A stretch of DNA of 64,000 nt, from the NCBI GenBank assembly GCA_950106755.1, contig OX467092.1, positions 28,472,582 to 28,536,581 on the forward strand, given 5' to 3'. The notes under the pieces were generated by a model, which searched no databases, was not told where the DNA came from, and was given only the letters and a program-made list of their open reading frames with translations. Both the position numbers and the translations under genes were made by a program. This stretch comes from Climacium dendroides (Eukaryota; Streptophyta; Bryopsida; Hypnales; Climaciaceae). Positions 9,602 to 48,053 of this stretch are shown here, in pieces. Each line of letters opens with the position of its first letter. The stretch's first letter is position 1.

Positions 9602-9632
9602 AATTTCCATTAAAATGAGAGTCTTTTTAGTG
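9602..9632 (+). repeat. Left terminal repeat of outer element
   Basis: CAATTTCC then ATTAAAATGAGAGTC. The core ATTAAAATGAGAGT is the inverse of the right end at about 48,027-48,040, and is close to the GTTAAAATGAGAC core of the nested element's TIR. Confidence 0.5.
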
Positions 9633-9711
9633 ATGGACTGTTGAAATACATGAAGTTTGCTTTAGGGTATATATTCTGATTTATATAAGTGAAGAGAATG
9701 ACATCTTTTGA

Positions 9712-9880
9712 ACACCAAGTCATAAGCTCCGCGGTTGGTTGTAAGGGGTTGTTCATCTCATTGAAGCGGTCCGGGTTCGATTCCCATTGGGTTTGTATGA
9801 GCGCATGAGAGAAAAAACATGACTTGGTGCTACTAAGTGAGCTTTGCCGGCAGGAAAGTTGTAACAACCAACCGACCCCC
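9712..9880 (+). repeat. tRNA-derived SINE-like insertion
   Basis: Contains GGTTCGATTCC near 9,773, a perfect match to the RNA polymerase III B-box consensus, preceded about 45 bases upstream by AGCTCCGCGGTTGGTTG, which resembles a tRNA A-box region. No full cloverleaf can be drawn. The extra ~170 bp here accounts for the longer distance between the DUF7869-like stop and the outer terminus compared with the nested copy. Boundaries are estimated. Confidence 0.4.
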
Positions 9881-10327
9881 TACCCAGAATGTGACAAGTG
9901 CTTTACATGTTAACCAAATAAATAGTGGATATATCCACTACATTTTTTTCTCCAATAGCAATGTAATTTCAAATAAAATATATTTAGTGATACACAAATA
10001 AGAAAATGAATTAAAAAATAGAGAAAATATAGCTCAAGAATAAAAAATATATATATATTAAAGACTATATTTAAATTCCATTGTTTTGTAAACACAAAAC
10101 ATACACTTGAAAACAATCATGCAGTATCAAACACTAAAATAGAATCAATCAACGGAAACCTATATCCTCTAAAAAAAACTAAAACGACTATCATCTATTA
10201 TAATATTAAGGGTCCAACACTTATGCAATGAAAAACAACTTCATATAAGATGTAGAAATAAAACAATACCCTCCATATGAATGTCATAGTTAAAATGCAT
10301 CCAATGTATGTACATGATTTCTCCATA

Positions 10328-13219
10328 TCATGTATATGAAGCCAAACTCTGGTTGATGATTTCGATTTGAACTGTAGGGATCTTGATTCTGCATTGGCGA
10401 GTACCTCTTCTGTTTTGAGACTTCCATGTTGTAATTAAAGCGTTTGTTGTCTCCCACGCAGGTTCTTCGGTTTCATCAACCCTCCAAAGCAAACCTCTAT
10501 CACTATCCCATCCTTCATAGAAGTCTTGAACTTCTTGATTGCGTGATGTTGGCCGAAAGTATTGAATGTGCACACAGTTTGGTTTCTTGGGGTTAGAGTT
10601 CGGATCAGACAATGCTCTGGCAATCCAAACTGGTCTGCTGTCACTGTTTGCAGGGCGAACTGCAACAAAATACCCTTCGTATACATCTCAAGCCACCCTA
10701 AAGGATGGTTGTGGACGATCCCTCAAGGGCCCAACATAAGGCTCATCCTCTCCATGCTCTTCGAGATCTTCACCATCTTCGTCTAAATGATTAGCTTCTA
10801 TCACTTGAATACGAGTAGTTGGCCAGAAACCATCTTTTAGAGCACTAGAAGTAGGAAGTGGCTCTTGAAGAGCTGCCTTTACACCACGCCAATAGTGCAC
10901 CACATTCTCATAGCGCCTACGATGTTCTCCACTCACGTCTGCTCTGCACAAGTCGTCCCAATAGTTTATGAATCCTGATAAACCTTTGACAATGTCATTG
11001 ACACCTTTCATTGGGTTGAGTGGTACTGGCAAAGGCACACCACGTGGCCACAAACTCCGTCCTTCATCGTCTTCTTTCCACAACTTAATGGCTTGACCGT
11101 GCCTGCCTAACCAGTTTTCATCCGTACACTTCAACTTGTACTTCATGACTGGGCATCCAACAGAGTCTAGGTAGAACTTCACTTGTTGCGGTCTTGTGTG
11201 TCCCACAAGGATTTCATCACCATCCATCCATTTTCCTGCAATGAAACGCTTGAAATCAGGCACCTCCTCTATGAGGTGAGGGATAGTAGGAATAGACTCA
11301 ACATCCATAAATGACTTCATGAGCGCCGGGATTGTTGGGAAGTTCTCCTTCTTTAATAGCATGCTCCATCTTCCAAACAATGCGTCAATGTCGTCGTGTG
11401 TGTGACCAACAATCATGAAGTTGACATACACTTCTTTGAAGATCTTGTTAGCAACAAGTAGAGACCAGAAACAGAAAACATATCTATTCTTGTTGTCGCC
11501 GGTGGCATTGTCCATTTGCACATTCAAAATAGGAGGCAAAGGCACTACTGGAACTGCATTCATTGGAGGTGGTGGCAGTGACGCGTCGCACATTTCTTTT
11601 TCCTACAGCACTGCCCTGAACAAATTTGAAGACCCTAACCCAGAAAATAATTGCCGAGAAGAAGACTTCGATGGCAATTCCAGATCCCGCAACAACTTTG
11701 CCATAGAACCAATTGTATAGTTTGAATCGTGTTTAAAGAGATCCAAACCATAATGTGCGTAACGCACATCTCCATGACCATGAGCAATCATGCCAGTGAC
11801 AGACACAGGCAATTTCACAAGGCCATCAAGCTCCTTACTCCTGTGGGAAAAGACTGGAGAAGTAGTCTTTGCATGATCCATCTTGTCGTGCATAACTGTG
11901 AGGCATTCGTGTGGAAAAGCTACTGAACGGTGACGGTTTGCATAATACAACTCCCGATGAGCTCGAGCAATCTCATTGTGCCTATCCAACTTCCAAGAAT
12001 ACTTCAATTCATTGTGAGACCCACTTATAGCACCCTTTTTGAGGTCTTGCAATTTGTCACATGTGCCACATCGCGCAAAATTGTCTCCAGGCTTCTTCAC
12101 CTCATACTCAGGGAACTTACAGCACCTAATCTTACTCAAGTTCGAAGTTGACACCTCACTCAGTCCAAAAATAGCATTGACATCATTGAGTTCTTTCATC
12201 TTACCCTTCCACTGGAAGGTGGAAGGTAGGATCTTGGCCACAACTTTCTCTTCTGACTTCAGGGTCTTCGTACGATGAGGCATGTGATCTGCCTCTTTCT
12301 CCAGAATGCACTTCAATGTTGCTATAGCTTGTTGAGTGTGTTTCCTCAGTTTCACCGTTCCCTTATTGCCATGGTCCTTTGCCTCTCGACCACGCCTCAT
12401 GTACGATTGGTAGCGATAGAATGTGGCCTCAGGGACCCCAGCTATATGCATCCACGCTCGCATACATACTAGTGTATTGTCAATTGACACCATTCGTCTA
12501 CCACGCTCGTCAACATGCACCTGCCTATGCACATCCATTTTCATGTAGGTCCTGTATTTGAACGTGGAGTTGCGATACATGCGTTCACGAAAGGCTCGAA
12601 TCTTATCCCTAGGAAATGGCTGAATATAGTTGCGACTACAACATATTTTAGTAGACACTGCATGGATGGAATCTTGAGTAAGCAACTCCTTCGATTTCAA
12701 ATTTGTTTCACGGGGCGCATTTCGGACCATACTTGTGTATGGTCTCGAAGACGTCGAAGAGGGCGGATTTAAGAGAGCCTGTTGGAGACAATTGAATTTG
12801 TCCCTAGCCTCATGGTCTCTAAGGCTAGCTCCACGATAGTGAACAAGATGAATAGGCCAAGCCAACAATGAGCACACTTGTTCCTCTGGTAGGTCCTCTT
12901 CGCTATGTGTTTTGGAGATGTGGATCGCCACGTGGGTGTCACCAAGAGGGCCATTGGCACCCAAAACGAGGTCAGAGTTCACACTATGACAGACACCTTC
13001 ACCCACAAGCACTCCAGCCTCATTGTACAAGATGACAACTCGAGTATTCCAAAGCTGACGCGGTAGACCTTCGCATTCCGGGACCCCAACATTCATTGCT
13101 TCGACATTCTGAAATTCGTCTTCTGAAGATGCCATGAAATCCTCTTCATCATGTCTGAATTCACTGGATTCAGAACCCGATGACATGTCCATGTCATCAG
13201 GGTCATCTATAGTATCCAT
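10328..13219 (-). pseudogene. DUF7869-like putative DDE-type transposase (outer copy)
   Basis: One minus-strand frame of about 963 codons from ATG 13,217-13,219, broken by TAG at 11,603 and TGA at 10,688. A pyrimidine-rich tract ending in TTTTTACAG lies just before the ATG, suggesting an intron in the 5' leader. The N-terminus is acidic; then come a C-S-R-N-Y-I-Q-P-F-P motif, a T-F-Y-R-Y block, a C-x2-C pair (RCGTCDK), MHDKMDHAK, QMDNATGDNKNR and GHTHDDIDALFGRWS. The spaced D...DN...D residues match the conserved core of plant and invertebrate proteins grouped as DUF7869, thought to be RNase H-fold nucleases. It is about 45-50% similar by eye to the copy at 35,541-38,391. The presumed role is transposition; catalysis is unproven. 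Confidence 0.7.
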
Positions 13220-13290
13220 GGATACCTGTAAAAATGCAATGTGAAATAGGGTAAGTGAATTGAAGCATAGATCATGCAATTTCATTCATG

Positions 13291-14214
13291 TTCAGGTCGA
13301 CCCGACCTGAATGACCAAATGTTATAGGTACATCTATGACAGGAACGAACTTATTCTGTGAAGCCTAGGTTTCAACTGCAATTGACATCATTCATTAAAA
13401 TTTCTTATAAATTCAGATATATGTAAACATTGTTTTCAGGTCGAATCGACCTGAAGTGTCTGATCCCTTGTCTTGTATAATTTTTGTTAGCCAAAAATAT
13501 AAATGTAAGAAGACTGAGTACAATCCTGAACTTCAGCTCGGATCGACCTGAAGTGTCCCTTGTACTCTGAGATAATGATCCCATCTTCATCTGTTCAATT
13601 CCACAAGGAATTCCCAATTTTATTCCTTTAAAAATCTCGAACTTCTCGAACTGAAGTCTATGATGGGAGTACCCACACTTCAGGTCGAACTGACCTGAAA
13701 TGAGGACTTGCAGTGAGCCGAATCCCATCTGTAGACTATTATCATTACGTACAGAATTCTTGGTGACTGAATCTGTGAATATCGGGAATTTCAGCAAGAC
13801 ATCTACGAGATTTTCACTTGAACGAAATTACAATTATAGATACGGTTTAGGTCGACTCGATCTGAATTGCCATGTATACCATTTCATAAATGATATTCGA
13901 TGACAGAACTATTCAATCTACTTAGGATACGTTTTACAGTACTTCAATTACTATCATATGGGTTAGTTCAGGTCGACTCGACCTGAATTGCATGAACGAA
14001 TGACTAATGTAGACAATCTCACATTCAGGTCGACTCGACCTGAGTTGCATGAATGAATGACTAATGTAGAGAACCTCACATTCAGGTCGACTCGACCTGA
14101 ATTGCATGAACGAATGACTAATGTAGACAATCTCACATTCAGGTCGACTCGACCTGAAGTGCATTAAAATTTACTCATGTACCATTGTTCGTATTCAGGT
14201 CGACTCGACCTAAA
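13291..14214. repeat. Array of 21-bp palindromes (CAGG-arm type) upstream of the outer DUF7869-like gene
   Basis: Ten palindromes with half-site TTCAGGTCG, a 3-bp spacer and the inverted half-site begin near 13,291, 13,435, 13,532, 13,679, 13,847, 13,967, 14,024, 14,081, 14,138 and 14,194. The last five are spaced 57, 57, 57 and 56 bp and sit in a near-identical tandem repeat containing GCATGAACGAATGACTAATG. They lie on the 5' side of the divergently transcribed transposase-like gene. Such dense, perfectly symmetrical sites suggest dimeric protein binding. Confidence 0.9.
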
Positions 14215-15387
14215 GAGTTCCGGATTTCTCAGACATTGTGTTGCCAATCTTGTAGTAACCGTGATCTCCTGTTCCGGGTTTCTCGGCGAGATAATCGAGC
14301 ACTGCACTTTCAGAATTCTGCAACTCAGATGTCAAGAACTAAACATTGAATAAAGACCTTGTCACTAAAAATTGAGGAAGTCCAGAACTCATAATCGTGC
14401 AACTCGATTTTCAGTAATAAACGTTGGAAACACACCCACTCTGCCAACTTCAGCAACTACGAACTCGATAGTAGATGGCAGCGCTGAAAGAAACATTATA
14501 CACACTCAGAAAACTACTATGTGCTTACAAAGTAACTATGTCCAATCCATTGAATGAAAATGTTTGAAAATGCTAAAGGCTTCTAACCTGAGGACATACG
14601 GAAGGCAACAAGCGCGCTCACCGAGATCCTCGAAGCACAATACTCCGACACTCTAGATAGTACAAGTACAAAAGTTGATAGAGTTCAGTAATGACATGAG
14701 AGAAGTGAAATCTCGCATGAACGTCCATGCATTCGCGACGGAGAAGGAGAGTACCCTAATGCGCGCGGACGCAACGACATTCAAAACAATTTTGGCGGCA
14801 ATGTGTAGGCGCAAATGCGAAGGCGGGAGCTGTAGGACGGAATTTGAAAATCCCGAACTCCTTCCGCAAATTCCTTTGATTTTTGATTCCCGCCTACACT
14901 GTTCATGACAGAAATAGCCACTGACAGTTATTAAGTACTTATGAGCTTGCTTTCTTGCACCGTTAAGCCCTAATTTCTAGATTCTATTTGTAACAAAATC
15001 TAGGCAAGAGATCTTCATTGTCTTTTTTTCTTTTGCAATTTTTGGTAGTCAATTTGATTTTACTGAAGTTAGGGTCTGTTTGTAAATTTAGACAAACACA
15101 ACCTTTTGCACCACCCAAGTGTTTGCATGTGATTTTATCAATAAGGGTTTTACAGTTTAGGGTTTAGGGTCTTTAGGGTTTAGGGTCTCTAGGGTTTAGA
15201 GTCTCTAGGGTTTAGGGTCTCGGGTTCAGGTATTTTTGTAGATTAATAAATCATTTCATATCATGTTTTTGAAATATTGAACAAATATTTAATTTAGAAG
15301 TGAATTCAAGGTTTTAGTACACACTAAGGAATTATACTGCATGCACTTTCAAATTCTTTTTATAATGTTCGCAATATTAATTTTTCT
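14215..15387. other. Outer-element spacer with degenerate telomere-like tract
   Basis: No gene supported. About 15,155-15,235 holds a degenerate run of TTTAGGGTTTAGGGTC-like words, an interstitial telomere-type repeat. Comparable tracts occur in the spacer of the nested copy (32.7-33.0 kb) and at 39.9-40.1 kb, so they belong to the transposon family rather than marking a chromosome end. Confidence 0.6.
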
Positions 15388-16170
15388 ATGAATCCGAATT
15401 ATTTCGCAGAGATTTGCAACTTGTGTGTTATTTTTTCGGACATGCTTCCACGTCAAACCGATACAAATTAATGGTTTGGTTTGTATTAATTACAACATCA
15501 ATCCTAAAGTATTTTTTTGGAAACTCATTTGAAAAAGTGTGGGTAAGCAATAGGGTTGTTTTAAAATTAAGTTTTTCCATGAATCCTAATTATTTTGAAC
15601 ATTTGCAATTCGTGTGTTACGTTTTTGGACATGCTTCTACGTCAAACCAATATAATTTATCGGTTTGGGTTCTATTAAATATAGCATGATTTTTAGAGTA
15701 TTTGTTTTGAAATCCATTTCAAATGAAAAAGACAGCGTAGGAAAGCAATAGGGTTGTCTTAAAATTAAGTTTTTCCATGAATCCTAATTATTTTGAACAT
15801 TTGCAACTTGTGTGTTACGTTTTTGGACATGCTTGCACGTCAAACCGATATAATTTATTGGTTTGGGTTCTATTAAATACAGCATGATTTTTAGAGTGCT
15901 TTTTTTAAACCCATTCCAATTGAAAAAGTGTGGGGAAGCAATAGGGTTGTCTTAAAATTAAGTTTTTCTATGAATCCTAATTATTTTGAACATTTGCAAC
16001 TTGTGTGTTACATTTTTGGACATGCTTGCATGTCAAACCGATATAATTTATTGGTTCGGGTTTTATTAAATACAGCATGATTTTTAGAGTATTTGTTTTG
16101 AAATCCATTTCAATTGAAGAAGTGTAGGAAAGCAATACGGTTCTTTTAAAATAATTTTTCCAATGAATCC
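15388..16170 (+). repeat. Tandem repeat, about four units of ~194 bp
   Basis: The phrase ATGAATCC recurs at 15,388, 15,579, 15,777, 15,970 and 16,163 (spacings 191, 198, 193, 193). Each unit contains ATTTGCAA, GTGTGTTA, GGACATGCTT, CGTCAAACC and AGCAATAGGGTTGT in the same order. The first unit is the most divergent. AT-rich, non-coding and satellite-like; no counterpart was noticed in the nested copy. Confidence 0.85.
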
Positions 16171-16246
16171 TACCCGATGAATTCATCCTCAAAATTTCAG
16201 TAGAATTTTTATGTATTAGATAAAATGCAGAGCAAGAAATGGGTTG

Positions 16247-16630
16247 GCGCTTGCTATGCTATCCATTCATCATTAGAATTTTATAAGAATTGTTGTGTAA
16301 AACTTTCAAATAAATCTTCAAATAAAAATCTCAAAAACTTTCTGAAGAACTTAATTCTTTTGGAATCCAAAATCACTTCAATTGAATGAATTTCTCAAAA
16401 TTATTTAGTAGTAGCAATAGAAGATTGAAATCATGAAAACTCACAGCTCACAAAAGAACAAAATCATAGAAGTGCAGAGGAGTGTAAAGCCAAGAGAAGC
16501 AATGGATTTGCTACCTCTATAATATCATTCTATGGATCCTCTTTAATATCACCTTCATTTCAACAACTATATTATGTCTATAATATCACCCGGTGGAAAA
16601 AGTGATATTATAAAAGTGATTGTTGGAGAT
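16247..16630 (-). repeat. Truncated copy of the 17.65-kb inverted-end element
   Basis: Shares GCGCTTGCTATGCT, CATTCATCATTAGAATTTTATAA (in two pieces) and the AAGCCAAGAGAAGCAATGG to AGTGATATTATA segment with 17,649-18,260. The match stops at about 16,622, where a 205-bp repeat begins. The terminal CTAG is not preserved. Confidence 0.55.
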
Positions 16631-16835
16631 CAACTCATGGTGTACAAGTAAAAGGTCAATATGAACGTTTACCTTGTGGTTATGATATTTGATTCCTACT
16701 TGTGTTCATCTGATTTTAATTCTTGTATGATTTGAATATTGTTTGAGGAATTCTCTTCTCCGTTTTCAAATGAAATTAGACTTTTGTAACTCTCATTTCG
16801 GTGGAATACTCTCATTTTAATGAATATTACGTTAT
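16631..16835 (+). repeat. 205-bp repeat identical in form to the outer element's right end
   Basis: Starts CAACTCATGGTGTACAAG and ends GAATATTACGTTAT. It matches 47,849-48,053 over the same 205 bp with about six substitutions and no gaps. It contains the same ACTCTCATTTTAATG terminal motif. It may be a solo end left by another insertion or a small mobile unit in its own right. Confidence 0.75.
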
Positions 16836-17648
16836 GACTAATAGTGAGCAAAATTTGTGGTGATTGTTTTTGTGTTATTTCAAAGTAATCAATAAGAATT
16901 TGTATATAGAAGTGTTTTGATGGCTAATCACTCCAAGGTTCATCGTGAAGAGTGCTAGGATGGTGAATAATTATAAATAAGCTAAGAATTCTACCGCCAC
17001 AAAGAAATTCATATGTATAATTCAAATTATAAATGAAGTTTCCCTAAAAATTTATATTGAAATCTTTAGGAACAAGACAGTGGTCTGAAGGTCTTTGACC
17101 AAGGGTGTCAGTTAAGTTTTTATATGGAATTCATAAGTGCTCTTTCAGTTTTTTTAGAATTACATCAATTATGTTACACAATAAAAAGGGGTAATTACTA
17201 CAGTCAATACCAATTCATCTAAGGAAACTATTAGTCAATCGTTCTTATAGTATGCACTTAATGCCTAGAACAAAATTGCAACTAATAATGATCGAATCTT
17301 TTTTGTTAAAATGGGAGGTCTCTGGCAGTAGTCAGTATACAAATGAAAGTTCGTACACCTTACTAAAGCCAATGATTTAGATAGTGAAAAAAAGAATGAT
17401 TTCCAAATGAAGAAATCAATATTTAAAGATTAAAAGGTAAAGGATTCACTTCCAATTCCCGTTAAAAAATTCAGGAATGAAAATATGTATTCTACATAGG
17501 TTTTCATGTGAGGAAGCTTTTAGGTATCATTGGGATTGAATTTGAAGGATTGACTATCATGGTTAAGTACAAAAAATGTTACGTTATTCAAATGAAGTTT
17601 TGTGATATTCATGTTTGTAAACAAACTTTTTAGTATTTTTGTTTCAAC
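16836..17648. other. AT-rich spacer, no features recognised
   Basis: Low-complexity AT-rich sequence with stops in all frames. No repeat or gene supported. Confidence 0.4.
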
Positions 17649-18459
17649 TAGAGGTTGGCGCTTGCTATGCTACGCATTCATCATTAGAATTTTATAATTT
17701 TTTTATATATTAGATAGAATGCAGAACAAAAATTTCAATAAATCTTCAAATAAAAATGACTAAAATCTTTGTATAATTTTTTTAAAAAGTAAGCATATAT
17801 TGAAATGTACAATAGAAATTTATTGAATGATGAATGAAACATATGCAATGGTAAATACTATAAAAGATACACATACATTAGAATGCATTAAAAATTTGAC
17901 TCCATTGTTACAAAAAATGGCAATCCAAATTGAAGAATTGAAAAGAAAAATTTATAAATCTTAAAAGCTTTTTAAACAACTCAATTGTTGTGGAATCCAA
18001 AATCATTTCAATTGAATAAATTTTTCAAAATCATTTGGTAGTAGCAATAGAAAATTGAAATCATGAAAGTTCAAAGCTCACAAAAGCACAAAATCATAGA
18101 AATGCAAAGAAGTGTAAAGCCAAGAGAAGCAATGGATTTGCCTTCTCTATAATATCATCATATGGATCCTCTCTAATATCACCTTAATTACAACAACTAT
18201 ATTATTTCTATAATATCACCCTTTGTAAAAAGTGATATTATAGAAGTGATTGCAAACTGCTACTCTATTTCTATGATATCACATTGTGTAAAAATACAAT
18301 TTCTATGTATGTATGATTGACAATATTTTTACATAATATTTAAAATAATTATTTTACAGACTTATTGAAATCATTATCATGCAATCTATTCAAATATATC
18401 AAATTTTTACTAATATGTAATACAATGAATGCGTAGCATAGCAAGCACGAGCCCCTAGT
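17649..18459. mobile_element. ~0.8-kb element with inverted Helitron-3'-like ends
   Basis: The left end reads CTAGAGGTTGGCGCTTGC then TATGCTACGCATTCAT; the right end is its imperfect inverse, GCGTAGCATAGCAAGC then ACGAGCCCCTAG, followed by T. The right end resembles plant Helitron 3' termini (GC-rich stem, then CTAG before T). Two opposed ends of this kind make a terminal-inverted-repeat unit of about 810 bp with no coding capacity. A related one-sided copy is at 16,247-16,630, and a weaker one near 31,972-32,010. Classification as Helitron-related is inference. Confidence 0.45.
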
Positions 18460-18569
18460 ATTAATGATAGCATTTGTGATATTACAGAGAGACTTATGAT
18501 TTTAGTAGTATGATAAACAAACCAAATTTTGGGAAAAGGGTATCTATTATTATGTTTAGGCTACAAAAA

Positions 18570-19115
18570 GGGATATATCACGGTCCAAGTACTTGAGACG
18601 GGTATTGAAGATGGTTGGGTACCAAAGGCGGGTATTGAAGAAGGCCGGGTACCTAAAATCACCAGGAAGAGTCGGGTACCTAGACCACCGGGTATATGCC
18701 TGTAGAGTTCTGGAAACCTAGGGTTTGGTATCCGCACATTTTCGTGCATGTCCGTTGTTTTGTCGTGCACCTCTACTGTTCCCTCATAAATCTCCGTTGT
18801 TCTCTTGTGCATTCTACTCTATTTTCGTGCATTCCGCTGTTCTTTGGGTGCATTTTCGTTGCATCTTCGTTGTTTGTGCATTTTGCACTTGCCGGCAGTT
18901 GACACGCATTTTTTTAGCACGGGCGTCATGAAGAAGAGGACCTTGTTTTCCGCATTGATTTGTGTGTGACTTTGGAGTTCGATTCAATTGGGGGGACTTG
19001 AAGCTGTGAAGAAGCGGACCTCAAGGCGGGCGTCGTGAAGAAGCGGACCTTGAGCATTGTTTTCTGTGTGATTTTGGAGTTCCATTTGATCGGGGGGACT
19101 TGAAGCTGCTGGGTG
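18570..19115. repeat. Short direct repeats in the outer-element spacer
   Basis: CGGGTA-containing units recur several times at about 18,597-18,700. A segment of roughly 85-90 bp (GGGCGTC.TGAAGAAG to GGGGGGACTTGAAGCTG) is present twice, near 18,922-19,012 and 19,027-19,112. No gene is supported, although open frames cross it. Confidence 0.6.
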
Positions 19116-19809
19116 GTGCTGTGTGTTTGCATCTAAAGGAGGTGCAGCTTGATCTCAAGGACATGTAACTTGAAGCAGGGTTTGGGGTTTGAGGTAAAAA
19201 CCTGACTCCATTCATCACTGTTATAGGAGTGCAATGGTTCTCTTGAGGCGTGTGATCTTGCTGTTTCTTTTCTCAGCTCCTCCAAGATCTGTCAGTTTTG
19301 TACTCAACGACGCTAGGATTTCGCGCAATAGGAGTCTTGTTTTTGCGTTCTGAATTTTTGTTACTGTGAATTTTCACAATTGTCCAAAGGAGGCTTGATC
19401 CACTTGGGAGAGTCTTTCTTCGAGAGTTTGTGTCCAGTAAAGCGGACCATCTTCGAGAATTTGTGTTTGTGAGCCATGGCTATGGCGTCTACTGATGCGA
19501 GGAGGTTTCCAGTGAAGTCCAGGTCGGTCTTGGGAGTGTTCCTGTTCTTAAGATTGGAGTCTCTGTTCCTCTTAGTGTATTGATGTGAAAGTGACACTTC
19601 TGCTTCTTTGGACACTTAGGGCTTGGGATTGGTTTTTTTGCTTTGTGTTGGGAATACTGTTGCATTTCCTCTGAAGTGTTGAATTCAAAATAATGGAGGA
19701 GGTACTTTCACGACATTTCATGATTTGTATGCATGAGATGTTATTGTCTGCGTTTCTACATTGTTGGATTTCGGATCTTGGATTGTGCCGGATTGTACAC
19801 ATCTTCCTT
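19116..19809. other. Outer-element spacer up to the nested insertion
   Basis: No gene supported. The last bases, CCTT at 19,806-19,809, recur at 38,952-38,955 immediately after the nested element and are taken as its target duplication. Confidence 0.4.
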
Positions 19810-19840
19810 AAGGCCTTATTTGTTAAAATGAGACAAAATG
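19810..19840 (+). repeat. Left TIR of nested element
   Basis: AAGGCCTTATT, T, GTTAAAATGAGACAAAATG, followed by a subterminal TCATTTTGAGAC. Pairs with 38,921-38,951 and matches the truncated copy at 4,879. Confidence 0.85.
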
Positions 19841-20354
19841 GTCATTTTGAGACTTCAAAAATTGAAAACCAAAGCCCCATTTCACAAAGAGTTGTTGAAC
19901 TCAATGATAAATAGAACTGTTTTGTCAACATCAACAAGAAGTTGCATCTAAAGAGATAGAAGAGGTGATTTTATATGATGACAATCAATTTAATAATGCG
20001 ATGGTTCAAAAGGTGCTTTCAAGGAAATTAATCAAGCGAATGAGTTCACGATCAATTAAGAAGCTTGGAGGAACCGTGTCATTTGCAATAGAATAGATCA
20101 TTTACAGTGAAAACAAACGAATCATTGAGTTTATTTTTTATTTTCCCAAATCCATGTGAAAACAATAAAGTGCTTCATAGTTACATGTCATAGCACCTCC
20201 TCTGTGTTCTAGTTTTTGTATATTTGCTATGCTATTTATAGTAACTACAATATGCCCGTACATACTCAATTTCTCTGAGTACTTACAATTTGACAATCAT
20301 TCTACTCATGGTAAAAGAGACTACAAAATTGATGGATTTTAAAACTTGTCTTTG
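19841..20354. other. 3' flank of the terminal cassette gene inside the nested element
   Basis: AT-rich, non-coding; about the same length as the gap between the last cassette ORF and the terminus of the outer copy (47,598-48,053). No site is recognised apart from the subterminal GAGAC motif. Confidence 0.4.
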
Positions 20355-21332: not shown

Positions 21333-21499
21333 CGATCAAGTAGTACTTCGAGGGCAAACAAATTCTTAAACATTGAACCAAAAGATGATTGATAAAAAAA
21401 GAGCTTCATATATTAATTACAACGAATGGTCATTCACTTCAAATACATAGTACAAAATGCCTGGACCCCTGCATGCTCAATCACACGGAAGTGTAAACT

Positions 21500-23913: not shown

Positions 23914-23949
23914 TGTGATTCATTACAAGGAGGTTGGGCAGATTTATTC

Positions 23950-38391: not shown

Positions 38392-38920
38392 CTTGTAGTT
38401 CATAATTTTATTAGACAAATGTTGTTTTGGTAGTTCAATTAGAGCACTCATTGTAATTATTAACAAGTTTGGACATGTTTACATTCATATATGTATTGGT
38501 TACTTTTATTATGGTAGTGTGCCTATGTATGAGAAATTTATTTCTATTAATAGTAAATTTTTTTATTACTATTGCGTCTCCAAGTATTGTATTCTAAATG
38601 TTTTTGGTGAATTTTTGGTAATTCATATGTTTAATTTCATGTTAAAGTTTTCTATCCTCCATGTATACATTAGTTTTTTGACATATGAAAGTTTTGATTT
38701 TTAAAAATGTCTCACTTCATAATGTCTTTGACTATTTTGTTTTCTTTTTTACAAAGGAATTAGTAAATCGAGATGTACTTTTGAGTTTGTGCTACTTTAG
38801 TTAATAGTATAAAATTAATGAAATACATATTTGACATTTTCAAGTCTCAATTTAATGAACAGTCTCAATTTAATGAACCCTTCTTCCACCTTGCATGTAT
38901 GAAAAATTAAAATGAGACTG
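38392..38920. other. 3' flank of nested DUF7869-like gene with subterminal repeats
   Basis: AT-rich and non-coding. GTCTCAATTTAATGAAC occurs twice near 38,846-38,880 and AAAATGAGACTG once, subterminal copies of the TIR core that could be transposase-binding sites. Confidence 0.55.
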
Positions 38921-38951
38921 CAATTTGTCTCATTTTAACGAATAAGGCCTT
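38921..38951 (-). repeat. Right TIR of nested element
   Basis: Plus strand CAATTTGTCTCATTTTAAC then GAATAAGGCCTT, the inverse of 19,810-19,840, followed by CCTT which also precedes the left TIR. Confidence 0.85.
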
Positions 38952-40215
38952 CCTTGGTCTCGATGGCATTTTAGATGCGTATGACTCTAGCTGAATCAAG
39001 TATTGTGTGAATCCTCATTGTACTTGTGTGGGGATTGTATTGTGCCAGAGCACTTTGCCGAGGTTCTGAAGAGCAAGGTTGTGTAACCTTATTCTACTTC
39101 AAAGAATAGGTACTGGTGGATAAGCTACAACAACAACAACGAGGTTAGTATCTAGAACTTCATTGTTTGTTTTTCCTTGCTCAGATGTGGTTGTACAATT
39201 TTTTCTAGAAAATGAGCTTCTGGAGATAAGAGTTGTGTATTCTGTTGGGTGGTATTTGCTCCCAACAGATTGGATCTTTCTTTGTAATTGTTGGAAGGAA
39301 TGTGGTTGCTTGGAATATGTTTGCAGTTTGTTTCTTGGCATTTGGTTTGCAATGTAAGTTTTTTAAAATTGGTTTGTTTTTTGCATTTCAGATTGACAAT
39401 TGTAGCACTGGAGTTACAAGATTGTGGAGTCTATAATAAGCAGCTACACTGAAAGTAGGAGCTAAGTTGAGGCTGAAGTTGCATAGCGCTTGCTTGTAGA
39501 AACTCAGGTATGTATTAATTTCAATTCTCTTGCACCATCTCAGCTTTGAATAGTGATTTCTGTGATTGTTGTAAAGCTAGTTGCAATGTCCAATGGGGTT
39601 TAACTTGCGGGATGTATCGTGTGCGTACGTTCCTTTTTTAGTTCTCGTGAGGTTTGTTGTTTTCTGTTAGAATTCATGGTTTGGAAGTTTCTAGATGAAA
39701 ACATGCTTGTTTGGGATGTTGTAGGTTTGTACAATGACTTTTTGGTTTTAGGTTTAGGTGGTCTGCTGGTTTGAGATGTTTTTGATTTCTTTGGCTTTTT
39801 TCAACTCTTGAATTTGTTGAAAATGTGGATAATATTGCAGGTTTAGGAGATTAATCCATCTGCTTTGCATTTCAAGATCCTCATTTTTTAATTCCCGAGG
39901 TGAGTTATAATGCACAGGACTTCGTTTAGGGTTTAGGGTTCAAAAAATGGCATTCATTGTTTAGGGTCCAGTACTTCAGTTCCAGGGTTTGTTCAGGGTT
40001 CAGTGCTTAGGGTCCAGGGTTTCTTTAGGGTCCATTGCTTATGGTTTAGGGTTTCCTTAAGGTCTACGAATTAGAATTAAGAATGTCAAGGAAAGAAATG
40101 ACCAGCCACAACCACACAAATTCCCCAAAATCAGCCCAATACTACCCGGGTATCATCTTGTCACACTAAATTCCTAAACGTACTACGAATGTAAGGCGCC
40201 TGAACGAAACTGCAA
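38952..40215. other. Outer-element spacer, right of the nested insertion, with telomere-like tract
   Basis: No gene supported. From about 39,928 to 40,060 a degenerate series of TTTAGGGTT, GGGTTCAG and AGGGTCCA words forms another telomere-like tract, directly next to the palindrome array of the cassette. Confidence 0.5.
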
Positions 40216-41300
40216 TTCAGGTCGCATCGACCTGAATTGCATATCCCTTCAAACACATATCCTAGGTCCGGGCAAGTTCCTTGAAAATTTTCAGATGAGA
40301 TTAACCTGCATTTCAGGTCGGTCCGACCTGAAATGTACACCTACTAACATTTTTTGTACAAAGAAGGCAACTAAATGGAAGGGAATTGCACTAACATGTC
40401 AGAAGACAAATAACAAAGTCATCCAAATTCAATGCAGATCAGGTCGGTCCGACCTGAACTGCAAAGAACACCCTATGCAATCTGACGTGTCAAATAAGTT
40501 GTAAGACCAACAAATAAATAACTATCACAATATTAGACACCTATTTATAAACAAATGGACTAATAAATGAGTTCATTAACGTGTCGGTAATGTACGTCAC
40601 ATGACCCACACTACAATTCAAGTCGCATCGACCTGAATTGCAGAGCCCCATAAATCATATTCTCTCCCAAATCTCTCCATTTGTCCGTGCTATTTCATGG
40701 ACAATGTTGACATGAGATGAACATGCATTTTAGGTCGGTCCGACCTGAAATGTACACCTACTAGCATCGTCAGTACAAGGCAAGCAACTGAGTAGCAGAC
40801 ACTATCACTAACATCTCAGAAGAGAAATAACATGATCGTCAAAATTAAATGCAGATCAGGTCGGTCCGACCTGAACTGCAAGGAAGACCCTCTGCAATCT
40901 GGCACAGCAAATACATATTCCCTTCACCAACATACATATTTATATGACTATATTAGACACCTAGTATAATTAAAAAATTGACCAAAAGACACATTTCTAA
41001 TAAACATCCATTTACCAACAACAAACATGACAACACTACCGCATGCAATTCAGGTCGAACCGACCTGAACTACCAGTTCCAAAGTGAGAACAATACGTAC
41101 TAGGACGATCCGATAACATTAATCAATAACATTGAGGCCATCACAATAGCAGAAATATTTGCATATTCCGACTAGAACTTCAGGTCGAGTCAACCTGAAG
41201 TGTATGAAGCAAAACGAACTGAGTCCAAGTAGATCAAACACATAGAAGATGAAATGTAGAAGCTCCATGTACTGGTTTTTAGGTCGGGTCGATCTGAATC
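40216..41300. repeat. Palindrome array (CAGG-arm type) upstream of the outer cassette
   Basis: Nine sites at about 40,216, 40,312, 40,438, 40,617, 40,729, 40,855, 41,049, 41,179 and 41,279. Half-site TTCAGGTCG (or ATCAGGTCG) with 3-bp spacers CAT, GTC, GTC, CAT, GTC, GTC, AAC, AGT, GGT. The first three and next three form a duplicated unit of about 400-417 bp. Arms are nearly invariant while the spacer varies, as expected for a bound inverted repeat. Confidence 0.9.
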
Positions 41301-41354
41301 AACATAGCAACAACTCTTGTTCTAACAACATCCCGTTTGGAAAATGAATGCAGA

Positions 41355-42791
41355 ATGGATGACCAAATTGAGAAGCTGGAGGCCTTCTACGTACGCTGTG
41401 CGCACAAATCCTCTGGGGAGGAAGGGGACGACTTTGACAATGACGGAGACTACTGGGAATTCAAAAATCCCGAAAAGGTTGAGAATTGGAGTCTCCACAT
41501 GATTCCTTTCAAGAACCTCATTTGCTTCGCTGCAAAGTTCAAAGACACCGACCATTTCTTCAACATATCCTTTGATGAGAAGATAAAGGACGTTGCCCAC
41601 GACAGTGGTCCATTCTTGAAAATTCGGTGTGTTACAGCTGTGACTGGTACACCCGAAAGCGAGCAGTACCACTTCACTATTTGCTTGGACTCCTCAAGAT
41701 GTGCCTTCAACATATCACACTTCCTGTCAACGCTGGAACCGACTGAGTACAGAACGGAGATTCCCGACCTTGAGAAGAAAGTTGACCACAACTACTTCAA
41801 GACAAAGGACAGGAAGTTGGCAACAGGGAAGGCCCTATACTCTCGCCTGAAGACACTCCTAAACGACTTCACAATTCTGAAGACGAAACTTGAGCTGAAG
41901 AAGAAAGACATGACTGTCAGAACTGTCTCCCAGGAGTTTCCAAGTAACGTGGAGGGACAGAGCTCAATGGGTACACTTAGAACCCAACAGAGTCGGGGGA
42001 CAAGAAAGTCCATGCAGGCCGCTACTCCAGCACGAGCTCCCAGGAAAAGTAAGTTCGCATCAACCTCAACAACGGCAACAGTAGCGCAAGACCCTAGTGC
42101 AGTTTTACTAGGGGAGCTGAGTTTTGTATCTGCGGTAACTGAGGTCCCGGTCCCTTATGACGCCAAGAAATCGCACGATTACATTGCGTCCGCGGAGGCA
42201 TACAAGGCCTACTGGAAGCACTGCACGGACGCCTACATCTTTGGCTTGGAGGATAAGAAGACAATTTCCATTGAGCAGCTCATCAAGGCCCTAGAGGACT
42301 TAAACATCCGTAGCCATGAAATGAAGCTCGTGGAGGACATGATGACATACCTCTGGAAAATGCCAGATAAGTCCACAAAACAAACATTGTGTGTCATGCC
42401 AGTGGATTGCTTCGAGAAGCCAAAGCCGGAGGACTGGCTAGCACTTGAAAGGAAGAACTTCTACATCATCAATGGGCAGCATAGTGTGACTGCCAGCAAA
42501 ATGATGGTAGACCAAAACCTTGACGAAGAGATTGTCAAGAACTTTCGTCAATGGGATTGCTATGTGGTCTGGTCCACAAATGCCCAGAAACTACGGGACA
42601 TATCGGCGTACTACAATAGGGTCAATCACTTCGTAGTGCAGAAGCCCTCGTGGTCAACAAACATTCTGGGAGCTAGAAAAGTGTAGGAACTCATGGGGAG
42701 GCCACGCAATCCGAAGGAAGCGGCCCCAATAGCGACAATGTCCAACGTCAGGCGAAACGCTGAGAGTACAACAAATAAGAAGAAATTCATG
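41355..42791 (+). pseudogene. ParB/DGQHR-like domain protein, cassette exon 1 (outer copy)
   Basis: Starts at ATG 41,355; an in-frame TAG at 42,684 replaces a residue that is Trp in the nested copy; ends at donor TTCATG/GTAAGAG. The first 175 residues match the nested copy's N-terminal domain (conserved ATGKALYSRLK block). A basic linker follows (RTQQSRGTRKS, APRKSK). The second domain has QTLCVMPVDCF, FYIINGQHSVTASKMM, WDCYVVWSTNAQKLRDI and YYNRVNHF. The I-N-G-Q-H-S motif after a hydrophobic strand is the basis for the ParB/DGQHR-like call. Overall identity to the nested copy is moderate, so the two diverged before this nesting event. Confidence 0.55.
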
Positions 42792-43021
42792 GTAAGAGAT
42801 TCAGGTCGAGTCGACCTGATCTGAGAATGTCGTCTTCCACCTAGTATTCCAGCCAGCATAGGTGATGTATTGATTTACTTCACGTGATAATGAATGAAGA
42901 GTTCGAAGTAAGTAAAACGACAAAGGTGTATTTGACGTTCAAAATGAAATGTGTAGTTTAGGTCGGTCCGAGCTGAATAGAGAGCTCCAAATTGACCGAG
43001 ACATACAAAATTGCGTTGCAG
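42792..43021 (+). promoter_or_regulatory. Cassette intron 1 (outer copy) carrying two palindromic sites
   Basis: Donor ATG/GTAAGAG, acceptor TTGCGTTGCAG. Sites near 42,801 (TTCAGGTCG, AGT, CGACCTGAT) and 42,958 (TTAGGTCGG...). Same position as the site-bearing intron 26,010-26,176 of the nested copy, which has the other arm type. Confidence 0.7.
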
Positions 43022-44041
43022 AAATTCTCATCAGCAATGTACAAGCGGTTCGCTCTGCTAGATGTACTAAAGGCCCAGAAGGCTGCAAAAGGCAAGGACG
43101 CCAAGAAGAAGCTCGAGATCCGAAACGAGCTGAAGATAATCACAGCTCCGGACGATGTGTACAACCTGTGGAGCGAGGTCATTTCTAGTGCTGCGCATGG
43201 GGATTTGATAGACCCCAATACTAGACTGAAGTACAACGAGAAGGCCACTTGGAAGCCCGAGCAAGGGAATCTGACGCATGAGTTCTTCAAAGTGCTCGGA
43301 AACCTTTCCTTCAATGACTTGTCGAAGCTGGCCAAACATATTCTGCATCAGAATCCAGGGAGCAAGAACAAGGACTAGAACAAGAAACAATTTTGTGCCC
43401 CCAAAATCCACTGCATACTATCGTCCATATGACGTTATGTATAAGACGCACCAAGATTGGCCTAGAGGTGTGCTCACTGCAGAGAACGTGAAGGACATCA
43501 AGCTTGGAGTGTGGGACCTACGTTACACCCCGAATGTGGTGTCAAAGTCTAAGTGTACGCCAGCCGATCCATACTTCGCTGCAGTTGTCGAGTCCTTCCA
43601 AGAAAAGGGCCAGCCCCTTCTCGAGGACATTCCGGTGTGGGTGCTCATTTGTTCCGACCTCACCGAACAAACGCAAGCACTTCACTTCATAGACAACAAT
43701 CCCGTATTGAAGGAGTACTCCATGAGTTTCTCTAACTACATGCCCTCACCCAATGAGCGTATCGGTGACTTGTCTGCACGAAGCAAGAAGGCGGTGGAAC
43801 CAATTTACCTGACCATCCTGCAAAGCCCAAGCAATGCTAGGACGGTGAGAATGAGGTCTTCCTATGATGCTCCTAGTACTGAAACATTTATGAGGCCCGG
43901 GGCTTACAACAAGCTAGAGTTCAGGATTAATAATACTGAGCTACGGATGGAGTTCTTCCTCAATCTTGTGAGGAAATTCTGCGCTCCTGGAGCAAGCGTA
44001 ATGTCATTCTTCGCTGGGTCGAAGTTCACGTGTGCTGCGAT
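43022..44041 (+). pseudogene. Amino-methyltransferase-like domain (outer copy)
   Basis: Exon from acceptor at 43,021 to donor GCGATG/GTAAGC, with a frameshift near 43,376. Order: LKIITAPDDVYNLWSEV, LTHEFFKVLGNLS, ...GVWDLRYTP, CTPADPYFAAV (possible remnant of the D-P-P-Y box), VWVLICS, IYLTILQSPS, then NTELRMEFFLNLVRKFCAPG and SVMSFFAGSKFTCAAM. The last segment closely follows the 'VLDPFAGSGTT..AA' SAM-binding loop of beta-class amino-methyltransferases, with F-A-G-S-K instead of F-A-G-S-G, preceded by the usual helix. This copy keeps motif I better than the nested one. About 100 residues present in the nested copy (25.3-25.6 kb) are missing here. Function inferred from motif order only. Confidence 0.55.
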
Positions 44042-44376
44042 GGTAAGCCTGAACACAATGAATTCCACAATGTAATGTTTTGGCTATGGTTAAGGTCGAT
44101 TCGACCTGAATAAAATGGACATGTATTTCTTCTTGAAATTCTAAGGTGATAGAAACCAGGTCAGGTCGACCTGACTCGTAGCATTGACTGGATTGTGTTC
44201 CTCCATAGTTTGGCTCGACCTGACCGGTTCTATTGAGTGTCCAAGAGTGAACTTCAGGTCGGGTCGACCTGACCCAATCTACTGCTGACGTTACGTGAAA
44301 TACCATTGTATCCTCGTTAGGGAATTTTCATACTATCGTAATCTGATAGTATGTGACATTGTGTGTGACTTTGCAG
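44042..44376 (+). promoter_or_regulatory. Cassette intron 2 (outer copy) carrying four palindromic sites
   Basis: Donor ATG/GTAAGCC, acceptor TGACTTTGCAG/ATG, phase 0, at the same protein position as 24,389-24,676. Sites near 44,087, 44,160, 44,208 and 44,251 are variants of TTCAGGTCG-3 bp-CGACCTGAA; the second and third are partial. Confidence 0.7.
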
Positions 44377-45357
44377 ATGAGTGGGGTTAATGTGTTTGCT
44401 GTGGGGGACTCGGAGGAGTCTGACCAGTGGACTGAAATTGCAACCACTGCGAAGAAACTGGATAAGAACGATTTTCTTCCAGAGGGATACTTTGTCGATG
44501 AGGGCAAATTCCCGCGCCGACCATTGGGGTCAAGCACGCCTTCGTCATCAAAGCGCAAGGGGAAGGCAACTAGAGAGGCAAGCATGCCGTCCGGTCGGAG
44601 GTCATCTACAATCATATTGTGTAAGTCCTCCGACAGCGATGGGGCAGCCGGTGATGACGACGACGACGACGACGACGTTCCCATGGATCGGAGCACCCCT
44701 CCAGTGATCCGCTCTCAAAGCATCCGGGGATCATCAACGTCGTCGGGTCAACCACTTGACTCATCTACCATGCCGTCTCCAGCCTCCAGGGAGAAGCGAA
44801 AGAGGGCAAGATCGCAAGCCGACGACGACTATGATGTAGAAATTGCAGAGCTGAAGAGGAGGCGGGAACTGGATCAAATGATGTTTGACAGGCAAGCCAG
44901 GGAGATGGCGGAGTTGCGACAGTTTATGGTGGCAATGTCACAAAAGAACGACTCCAAACTGGAGGCCATTATCAACAATCTTGGTGGGGCCATGCCTCTA
45001 GCATCCATACAGCCGTCTCAGGTTGACCAAGTGCTTTTGCTGTAGGGAGCGCCAACAAGACCAACGATGAGTGGATCCTCAAGCTTACCCTCCACTCCAC
45101 GATTGACTGGGGTGCCTTCTGTCTCTCTCACTCCTCTTGCAGGTTCCGCAGATCCTCCAACTCCTCCTCCTACTGAGGAGTGCCCCTCCACCCCTCCACC
45201 TCCACCTGATGACGAGGACATGGCTCGAGTTCCACTTGATGGTGGCAGGTCCTTAGAGACCTTGGAGTCTAGCCCGAAGATGCCCGCGGATCCTGCCATC
45301 GCCATTGATGATGATCGGAGTCATGCATTGGATGGCCAGGATGCACCATCAGGTTGA
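44377..45357 (+). pseudogene. Methyltransferase-like fold end, acidic linker and coiled coil, Pro-rich tail (outer copy)
   Basis: Opens with MSGVNVFAVGDSEES (the strand after motif I), then KKLDKNDFLPEG shared with the nested copy. A poly-Asp run (GAC repeats, about 44,653-44,677), a charged helix (DVEIAELKRRRELDQMM) and Gln/Asn/Ser-rich sequence follow. An in-frame TAG at 45,043 separates this from a Pro/Ser-rich continuation (TPPPTEECPSTPPPPP) to 45,357, where the frame closes; a weak donor (CATCAG/GTTGAC) lies there. Confidence 0.55.
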
Positions 45358-45601
45358 CCACACAATCACTCAATGTCATTTGTATAGAATTAGTTCCACT
45401 CGAGCTGATTTGTGTCATAGGTTGTACTTAGATAGAGCCCCTTAGTATGGGAGACAATACTTTTTGATAGAAAACAATTTTTTGGCTAATCCATATCTTC
45501 ATGTAAGATGATGACTTTTTATACTGAATTTTATTAATCAATTATACGGATTTTTCTGTAAAAATTTTAAGTCTTGTTTGTCTGGCCCTTCCTGAATTGC
45601 A

Positions 45602-45835
45602 GAACCTCCTCTGATGGCTATCTCAACTGGACCAAATGATCTTCTGAAATCTATTGCTCCTGTACAGCATGTACAATGTCCAACATTTGGTTGTGGTATT
45701 ATAGAAGCTACAAGTGGAGGTGCATTGGAATCTGAGTCCATGCACTTAGATGATGACGTCTCTATTCCCGACACTCAGCTTCTGGAGATTGAAATGCCAG
45801 ACCCTGTTGGACCGACGTTGTCTTTGCCGGAAAAG
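45602..45835 (+). CDS. Short cassette exon between Pro-rich and FCP1-like parts (outer copy)
   Basis: Bounded by acceptor TGAATTGCAG and donor GAAAAG/GTAACC; 234 bp, phase 0 at both ends. It encodes 78 residues (PLMAISTGPNDLLK, DDDVSIPDTQLLEIEMPD) with no recognisable domain and no obvious counterpart in the nested copy. Confidence 0.5.
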
Positions 45836-45991
45836 GTAACCTCGTGCCCATGCGTCCTTGATCTCTGTGCTAATAGGTACCTTTGTATTCATATATAATC
45901 TGCGACAATTGGATTTTGCCTTTTTCCTTGAGTTTCGAAATGTGTTAGTGCAGCTTAGTAACTAGCTGCACATTTGTCCGTTTGATAGCAG

Positions 45992-46792
45992 GGATCGGTT
46001 CCTCCATCTGAACGTGGAGATACGTCGAAGGATGTTGAGATTCCATTGACGTCCAGGGTGACCGTCGCCGAGAAGTGGCTGAATGTTGTCTTGGACTTGA
46101 ATGGAGTCTTGTGTGTTTGTGAAGACACCAAGTACAAGGGGTGGGCTGTGCATGTCGGGAATGCAGACCAACCGCACTCCACCATGATTCCTGCGATTGT
46201 GGGACCGAAGGCGGTCTTTATCCGCCCAAATTGCGCTCATTTCCTTCGTGAGCTAGAATTGATAGCACACGTTTCTATTTGGAGCTCCATGAAGAAGTTT
46301 ACCGTTCAAAAAATCATCGATTATCTTTTTGTTGGTCTGGATAAGCCTCGCATTATACTTGGGCAGGAGTCTTGCACGACGCTCAAGTGTGAGGAACAGG
46401 GCCGGATAGTCACATTCAGGGAGCCAGGCACCACCAAGGACCTGTTCGTGAAGGACGCGAACACCTTGTTTAATAATTTCAATGGGCAATTTCTTCGAGA
46501 GAATACTGTCATAGTTGACGATAGTCCTATGAAGCACTTCATGAACAAGTCGGAGAACGTCGTTCTCCCCATCAGTTGGTCTCCCAAGGGTAACGGCCCC
46601 AGGGACTCATATTTGGACATGGTCCTTTTGCCCTGGCTCAGGCGACTTCACATAGCTCGAGATGAAGGGTTGAAATCATTTCGCAAGAGTAGTGCAGGGA
46701 AAATTGGGCGGAAGATGTTGTATGATGAGAGAAATCGTGGCATGTACAATAGTCTTATGGATGCAGTCAGAGTGTCTTCAGCGTACCGATAG
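45992..46792 (+). CDS. FCP1/HAD-type phosphatase-like domain (outer copy)
   Basis: Open from acceptor TGATAGCAG (45,991) to TAG 46,790-46,792. LDLNGVLCV is HAD motif I with Asn at the second acidic position. Then IRPNCAHFL, VSIWSSMKKF (motif II region), a domain with ILGQESC, VIVDDSPMKHF (acidic pair binding Mg in active HADs) and LLPWLRRL. It resembles the plant FCP1-homology subfamily whose first motif reads L-D-[LV]-N-G. No stop interrupts it, unlike its counterpart at 21,500-22,342, so it may be the least decayed part of the cassette. Probable host-derived cargo; a dephosphorylation substrate cannot be named. Confidence 0.75.
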   Translation, partial: GSVPPSERGDTSKDVEIPLTSRVTVAEKWLNVVLDLNGVLCVCEDTKYKGWAVHVGNADQPHSTMIPAIVGPKAVFIRPNCAHFLRELELIAHVSIWSSMKKFTVQKIIDYLFVGLDKPRIILGQESCTTLKCEEQGRIVTFREPGTTKDLFVKDANTLFNNFNGQFLRENTVIVDDSPMKHFMNKSENVVLPISWSPKGNGPRDSYLDMVLLPWLRRLHIARDEGLKSFRKSSAGKIGRKMLYDERNRGMYNSLMDAVRVSSAYR

Positions 46793-47192
46793 CGCACTGC
46801 ATTTCATTACTGTTCATGAGCCACGTGGATGCAGTGACTATGTCATCGTCTAATCGGCGTTACGAGAGGGTAGTTTATTTATTGCTTTAGTTCAGGTCGA
46901 GTCGTGCTGAATGGCATGTGGATTGTTCTCTGAGTTTCTAGTGAACTTCAGTTCACCTCGACCTTAATGGCTCGTGCATTCGCATGTATGGTTAGAGATA
47001 TACGTAATTTCTGTAATATAATTTTTTTATGAATACCTTTCTGTATTTTCTTCTTCCTCCAGTTTAGGTCGGGTCGACCTCATTCGATGGCCAGGACTTC
47101 CTAGACTGCAAATTTGCTATTGGAGTTTATTTGTAAATGTAATGACAGTTACAGCTTTTGATTAAATTGTTCTAATCTCTTTGTTTTCTTAG
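46793..47192 (+). promoter_or_regulatory. Gap between FCP1-like and terminal ORF, three degenerate palindromic sites
   Basis: Sites at about 46,891 (TTCAGGTCG, AGT, CGTGCTGAA), 46,949 (TTCAGTTCA, CCT, CGACCTTAA) and 47,064 (TTTAGGTCG, GGT, CGACCTCAT). It ends at acceptor TTTTCTTAG. No such sites were found in the corresponding gap of the nested copy (21,333-21,499). Confidence 0.55.
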
Positions 47193-47597
47193 AATTTGGG
47201 AACGTCGTCCTCTCTAGTTCGGCACACCAGTCTTCCGTGCACTGCATCAGCTGACTCTTTCTCCGACTACGGGCAGAATCTAATTCTGAGTACAGGAAAC
47301 TTCATGTGTTCAGCTGCCACTGCAAATTCGACAATGGACTTCTCCCTAAAGCCCGTTGATGATAGGGTGGTGGATAGTCCCCCGGGTTCAGCTCCACATC
47401 GTCCAAAATCATGTTCTCCATCGCCCATGAAGTCTAGCGATGTTTTTGCTACACCGATGTCGTCCTCACCTTGCGATAGAGCAACACAGCGGAAACTATA
47501 TGGTGAGGATGTGGGTCCTTTTTCGGATGTTCAAGGAAGTATGTGGGCTTTCCAAGCTCATGAATTACAAGCAAGTACAACCACAGGCCGAAGATGA
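47193..47597 (+). CDS. Basic Ser/Pro-rich terminal cassette protein (outer copy, short)
   Basis: About 134 codons after an acceptor. It shares with the ORF at 20,355-21,332 the A-A-T/D-A-x-S alanine block, V-V-D-S-P-P, P-K/T-x-C-S-P-S-P and a T-Q-R-K-L/S-R-K-L motif. It ends far short of the 325-residue copy, so the C-terminal helix is lost. Function unknown. Confidence 0.5.
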   Translation, partial: NLGTSSSLVRHTSLPCTASADSFSDYGQNLILSTGNFMCSAATANSTMDFSLKPVDDRVVDSPPGSAPHRPKSCSPSPMKSSDVFATPMSSSPCDRATQRKLYGEDVGPFSDVQGSMWAFQAHELQASTTTGRR

Positions 47598-47848
47598 CGA
47601 AGGCAATCGTGGAGCTCAAGAGTAAATGACACGTATAGTACTTGTTCATAGTGTAGAGTCATACATTCATGCTTCATGAAAGCTCAATGTGCATATTACA
47701 AAGGAGCTCAAAACTCGAGTGAATCACACTCGTAGCTTTTACAGTGTACGCAAAACAATGTAATGAACTACATTACTGGCCTTTATAGTTCGTTGTCTGT
47801 AATATAGTGTCACTAGACCTAGCCAAGCATAGTTGAAGATGTATGGAA

Positions 47849-48053
47849 CAACTCATGGTGTACAAGTGAAAGGTCAATATGAACGTTTACCTTGTGGTTA
47901 TGATATTTGATTTCTACTTGTGTTCATCTGATTTTAATTCTTGTATAATTTGAATATTGTTTGAGGAATTCTCTTCTCCATTTTCAAATGAAATTAGACT
48001 TCTGTAACTCTCATTTCGGTGGAATACTCTCATTTTAATGAATATTACGTTAT
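47849..48053 (+). repeat. 205-bp right-end repeat of outer element
   Basis: About 97% identical by eye to 16,631-16,835 over the same length. Contains two inverted TGAGAGT-type motifs (ACTCTCATTT) near its right end, the second being the inverse of the left terminal motif at 9,608. The last shared base is 48,053. Confidence 0.7.

Follow-up and report, generated by a model that had tools for sequence, protein, structure and literature searches.

The window, a stretch of 64,000 nucleotides from the moss Climacium dendroides, carries two copies of a design in which a DUF7869 gene is combined with a spliced cassette that includes a ParB-like exon. This locus raises the question of whether the two genes belong to one mobile element and, if so, what the cassette does for that element.

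Architecture and boundaries of the two elements

Six-frame comparison paired the DUF7869 gene at 10‒13 kb (minus) with the cassette at 41‒48 kb (plus), and the cassette at 20‒28 kb (minus) with the DUF7869 gene at 35.5‒38.4 kb (plus), indicating that one element is inserted in a relative of like design (strand is given in this and the following lists where one applies):

9471..48051: outer transposon, 19,435 bp once the nested insertion with its 4-bp duplication is subtracted; ends from six genomic copies
19810..38951: nested transposon, 19,142 bp, inserted in the outer transposon; the family design is common to both

In both elements, the DUF7869 gene lies towards one end and the spliced cassette towards the other, and both are transcribed outwards from the middle. 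In blastp comparisons of outer with nested proteins, DUF7869 gave an E value of 1.5e-142, the ParB-like exon 1.6e-24 and the FCP1-like part 5e-16, while the exon after the ParB-like one gave 5e-15 and 1.4e-16 in its two halves. With gene order kept and this level of similarity, the two copies of like design described in the first-pass annotation are real.

The nested element is bounded by 28-bp terminal repeats, AAGGCCTTATTYGTTAAAATGAGACAAA, with 1 and 0 mismatches to one pattern, and the target duplication CCTT is present on both sides (19806‒19809 and 38952‒38955). The left end of the outer element, previously placed at 9602, had to be moved to 9471: six other genomic copies align past 9602, with 18‒20 of 20 bases per block, and the alignment breaks off at AACACAATATTC in five copies and at AATACAATATTC in one. 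The motif near 9602 is internal to the element. The left terminus AACACAATATTCA (AATACAATATTCA in one of the six copies) partners the right-end AACGTAATATTCA at 48051, and these terminal repeats are short and imperfect. No exact target duplication was found at the ends of the outer copy in the window (GTGA versus ATAT). Both copies had been called full-length; their ends could be located, but each carries stops or frameshifts.

Genomic copies and movement as a unit

Copies were searched for in the source genome (412.6 Mb). With the nested DUF7869 protein, 73 matches were scored out of 1952 candidates, 54 of them (window included) at 91‒100% identity and 19 at 67‒73%. The 20 best-scoring copies besides the window were sampled by taking 10 kb from their cassette side and 700 bp from the opposite end. 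The ParB-like exon was detected in all 20 (two showed no more than its first part, at the stretch edge), exon 2/3 in 18, the FCP1-like exon in 17 and the SP-rich exon in 15, while the left terminal repeat was found in 14 and the right in 20; the missing parts were interrupted or lay beyond the fetched stretch. In all 14 copies with both ends read, the flanks differed, an exact 4-bp duplication was present, and the DUF7869 gene and all four searched cassette parts lay between matching terminal repeats.

A search with outer exon 1 scored 92 matches of 1100 candidates at 89‒100% identity, window included. Six outer-type copies were sampled from these exon-1 matches, and both samples are biased to well-preserved copies. 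The outer-type DUF7869 gene was at the expected distance and strand in 6/6, and an exact 4-bp duplication was found in five, being absent in the sixth as in the window copy. Thus, terminal inverted repeats bound a like unit at many loci of both types, and the duplication is 4 bp long in 14/14 nested-type copies and the nested copy of the window, as well as in 5/6 outer-type copies. These results support the earlier proposal that the two modules co-occur and move as one unit, between terminal repeats and with 4-bp target duplications; both families have the terminal repeats and fixed-length duplications of a TIR (cut-and-paste type) DNA transposon.

The DUF7869 gene

10328..13285, minus: outer DUF7869 gene, predicted DDE-type transposase; Pfam PF25273, E 2.7e-34; in-frame TAG at 11603, TGA at 10688
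35484..38391, plus: nested DUF7869 gene; PF25273, E 2.5e-25; frameshift near 37290, TAG at 37723

The Pfam matches verify the DUF7869-like gene reported in one arm, and the outer and nested proteins are 46% identical. The conserved motifs HDKMDH, QxDNA and DIDALF are placed at strand ends and on a helix, as expected for an RNase H-fold DDE enzyme, but the fold-search rows mainly cover the C-terminal domain. Inspection by eye also points to HTH-like and Cys-rich segments within this protein. Among the best 120 of 138 proteins, those relatives of the window DUF7869 protein that carry an organism name belong to Physcomitrium patens and Ceratodon purpureus, both mosses.

The cassette gene

41355..42791, plus: outer exon 1, N-terminal domain and ParB-fold domain with NGQHS motif (fold from the Physcomitrium relative); in-frame TAG at 42684
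42983..44042, plus: outer exon 2/3, with a helical region, an MTase-like segment and one frame change
44377..45835, plus: outer exons 4‒6, with an acidic linker and a coiled coil; splice signals and frame judged by eye
45992..46792, plus: outer exon 7, FCP1/NIF-like domain with DLNG replacing DxDx; Pfam PF03031, E 2.6e-14
47193..47594, plus: outer SP-rich basic exon; DxVVDSPP...CSPSP common with the nested copy, by eye
26096..27601, minus: open frame of nested exon 1 (ParB-fold), one in-frame TGA; the true exon end is probably before 26096
24605..25963, minus: nested exon 2/3 (helical, MTase-like); one in-frame TGA
22839..24409, minus: nested linker and coiled-coil exons
21503..22432, minus: nested FCP1/NIF-like exon; PF03031, E 3.7e-6; one in-frame TAG
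20358..21335, minus: nested SP-rich basic exon

The spliced cassette is present in both copies, but what had been described as an assembly of parts is one fused gene, with predicted Physcomitrium proteins of 1,489‒1,551 aa. Exon 1 is about 24% identical between the two window copies. A confident model of a Physcomitrium cassette relative has the ParB/Srx fold, supporting the ParB-like assignment, while the helices after this fold, a candidate HTH region, were modelled with low confidence. Of 123 relatives, 11 had no readable Box II motif; in the remaining 112, arginine never follows GQH, and the Box II (GxxR) position is always occupied by S, N, I, C or T. In the parts of a ParB-fold survey that deal with this residue, its change abolished nucleotide binding (PMC12704722), and a CTP-driven clamp may therefore not exist in the cassette protein.

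Family-specific palindromes in the window

Both elements carry a palindromic site of 21‒23 bp, in which the core TCGA-N-TCGA is common to the families and the arms differ:

13291..14214: outer cluster upstream of the DUF7869 gene; 10 sites, 5 in a 57-bp tandem array
40216..41298: outer cluster upstream of the cassette; 9 sites
42800..42977: outer, cassette intron 1; 2 sites
44090..44273: outer, intron between exons 3 and 4; 3 sites
46891..47083: outer, between the FCP1-like and SP-rich exons; 3 sites, 2 weak
33773..35283: nested array upstream of the DUF7869 gene; 16 sites, tandem unit of 207 bp in about 7 copies
27703..28468: nested cluster upstream of the cassette; 5 sites
24438..24563: nested, intron between exons 3 and 4; 2 sites

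Another nested site, at 26137, falls in the last part of the open frame of exon 1 and probably beyond the end of the exon itself. When TTCAGGTCGANTCGACCTGAA was searched at up to 5 mismatches, all 27 matches in the window fell inside the outer element; for GTTATCSTCGANTCGASGATAAC at up to 6 mismatches, 27 of 29 fell in the nested element and 2 in the outer. At a limit of 3 mismatches, 23 outer-type and 15 nested-type sites were detected, against none in eight trials each with shuffled windows. A motif-free search gave 36 ten-arm palindromes in the window versus 2‒10 in 20 shuffles, and 26 of the 36 were family sites.

The sites occur in the region preceding each of the two genes, often as tandem arrays, as well as between exons of the cassette. 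Under tighter limits, all 23 outer sites were outside exons, and two of 22 nested sites were in reading frames, that at 20892 being coding and the other probably past the exon end; the weak nested-type sites 23094 and 23256 fall in coding exons. Neither window element has a palindrome within about 0.9 kb of its ends. The palindromes are thus family-specific and mostly noncoding, with a common core.

The first-pass annotation did not record these palindromes.

Palindromes at additional loci

Four additional contigs came from one cyanobacterial genome bin and are presumably moss DNA: L002, on which the DUF7869 gene alone was seen, and the cassette contigs L019, L020 and L021. All share the core TCGA-N-TCGA. 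L002 has five palindromes, two of them weak, with TTTAGC arms; L019 and L020 have eight and six with TTCAGC arms, and L021 has five with TTATCC arms. In the three cassette contigs, palindromes occur between exons, including the exon 1/2 border inside the open-frame tail, and both contigs that reach upstream of exon 1 have them there as well. In a tree of exon-1 proteins, the nested copy grouped with L021 (TTATCC; 37% identical) and L019 with L020 (TTCAGC), each with support of 100/100. For the five labelled elements, however, shuffled labels matched cassette clades equally well in 67 of 200 trials, so that arm types are consistent with, but no proof of, tracking of the cassette tree.

Candidate function of the palindromes

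These observations led us to a reading to which we give roughly even chances: the window represents two families of ~19-kb moss DNA transposons that combine a DUF7869 gene with a ParB-fold/FCP1-like fused gene, and the palindromes of each family are the likely landing site through which an element recognizes itself and stays expressible. Each window element has some twenty or more copies of its own palindrome. A dimer of the ParB-fold protein would bind the family palindromes and may then accumulate on the element or spread across it, in the manner of ParB, Noc and KorB at palindromic sites. The FCP1-like and MTase-like domains could serve as adaptors to chromatin or RNA polymerase, opposing silencing or promoting expression, much like VANC for Arabidopsis VANDAL elements. 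A more specific proposal, which we hold tentatively and at somewhat below even chances, is that plant transposons have domesticated a ParB‒parS-type system, in which a protein composed of a ParB fold, an FCP1-like domain and a dead methyltransferase would load at family palindromes whose TCGA-N-TCGA core is constant and whose arms vary, spread along the element and shield it from host silencing, with arm changes giving new specificities of self-recognition.

It is also conceivable, at perhaps one chance in a few, that the palindromes serve as operators for the DUF7869 transposase or another protein of the element, giving simple autoregulation, and that the ParB-fold fusion has a different role. 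The densest arrays of both window elements are directly upstream of the DUF7869 gene, L002 has palindromes although the DUF7869 gene alone was seen on its contig, and the HTH-like and Cys-rich segments could read them. However, sites are also found between cassette exons in three contigs and upstream of exon 1 in two, they are lacking close to the ends, at which a transposase has to act, and the arm types are consistent with the tree, which was built from cassette exon 1.

Catalytic motifs of the fused protein

The fused protein as an active DNA or protein modification enzyme (methyltransferase and phosphatase) targeted to the element, for which the first-pass annotation offered the analogy of TET/JBP cargo, is an improbable alternative. 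Motifs X and I of the MTase-like part aligned by hhalign to eight N6_N4 MTases with E 0.0016 (probability 16%) and 0.0005 (31%), while two other moss alignments gave 0.36 and 0.91; a Ceratodon relative matched PADLOC MTase_II (E 0.013), and Pfam NIF was matched with E down to 4.5e-15, in support of the FCP1-like part. Against catalysis, the D/N/S-P-P-Y/W (DPPY) motif is absent in the alignment rows reaching that site, which have DxR instead (DLRE, DLRY, DTRE, DFRN). The amino-methyltransferase-like part named earlier is therefore retained as a weakly supported similarity, but without the catalytic motif. Similarly, the catalytic motif of FCP1/NIF phosphatases is DxDx(T/V), while both window copies and Physcomitrium have DLNG, in which the second aspartate is missing, making FCP1-like catalysis doubtful. 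Fusions of a ParB fold with N6_N4 MTases are frequent in phages according to the sections of the survey on such fusions (PMC12704722); a tblastn search of 50,697 phage records with the Ceratodon relative P0125 gave no match. In the scanned proteins, DUF7869 and NIF were the only domains above Pfam cut-offs.

A role in copy maintenance or transposition, by parS-like pairing of copies or element ends, is very improbable: the ParB-class fold and clustered palindromes recall the parABS layout, but chromosomally integrated elements have no need of partition, the Pfam matches of the scanned proteins include no ParA-like domain, and the sites are away from the ends.

Comparison with known systems

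Fungal KDZ transposons carry TET/JBP cargo and, like the moss elements, are large with an epigenetic-type accessory gene, although transposase and cargo differ. In comparison with the CTP clamps ParB, Noc and KorB and their parS-type palindromes, the moss counterpart sits in a eukaryotic transposon, lacks the Box II arginine and any ParA seen, and is fused to MTase-like and FCP1-like parts. The phage ParB-N6_N4 fusions, as far as the survey describes them, have the MTase part after the ParB fold as in the moss cassette, which differs in lacking catalytic motif IV and in having an extra FCP1-like domain (PMC12704722). Sulfiredoxin is the commonest eukaryotic representative according to that survey, and the words 'plant' and 'moss' have no match in the main text (PMC12704722).

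The closest functional precedent is VANC, the anti-silencing protein of the Mutator-like VANDAL elements of Arabidopsis, which binds the motif of its element and removes DNA methylation. In the relevant parts of that work, a VANC accessory protein diverges faster than its more conserved transposase, and short noncoding motifs, often tandem and located in introns and intergenic DNA, differ between related elements (PMC5735166). The moss elements are alike in both respects, with about 24% identity between the window copies in exon 1 and 46% in DUF7869. As described there, VANDAL elements have a Mutator-type transposase and a DUF1985/DUF287 accessory protein, whereas the moss elements have DUF7869 and NIF instead. 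The moss elements, known from sequence alone, also differ in that their site is a palindrome of 21‒23 bp with a common core.

Significance

Our literature searches found no description of these elements; unpublished or subscription work may exist. If the proposed reading is true, self-recognition in eukaryotic transposons would be provided by a clamp fold of bacterial type together with a palindrome code that can be read. Physcomitrium is a model moss with efficient gene targeting. If the palindromes have been read correctly, their code would be legible across mosses directly from genome sequence, and the co-evolution of regulator and target, as well as escape from silencing, would therefore be directly testable in Physcomitrium.

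Additional repeats and reading frames in the window

Within its own left arm, the outer DUF7869-bearing transposon carries a second copy of its right end, which is adjoined by a MITE-like repeat. This repeat and the others of MITE-like type lie as follows:

16181-16622, partial relative of the MITE-like element at 17653-18459
16628-16835, second copy of the right end (208 bp, 97% identical)
17653-18459, MITE-like element with inverted ends of about 22 bp (CTTGCTATGCTACGCATTCAT)
31775-32012, inverted relative of the MITE-like element at 17653-18459

A third terminus of the nested type was detected at 4879-4950, with the terminal repeat matched at 27 of 28 bp, adjoining a Ty3-type reverse transcriptase frame; no partner end was found in the window. 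The 750-aa open frame at 50589-52841, which gave no match in the Pfam search, is perhaps another mobile-element gene. In addition, the segments at 1093-1643 and 54853-55403 form an inverted pair (69% identical) within the window, perhaps representing the gag regions of two related retrotransposons.

Related copies outside the window

One outer-type genomic copy, L079, lacked a matching target duplication, and by eye a second DUF7869-like reading frame seems to adjoin it; nested insertion or recombination is a possible origin of this arrangement. Moss-like transposon contigs (the DUF7869 locus L002 and the cassette contigs L019, L020 and L021) were included in the bin of the cyanobacterial genome AVDCRST_MAG81 from a public species collection, and a similar protein, P0168, bears the name 'uncultured Leptolyngbya'. 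The presence of these four contigs in AVDCRST_MAG81 probably reflects contamination.
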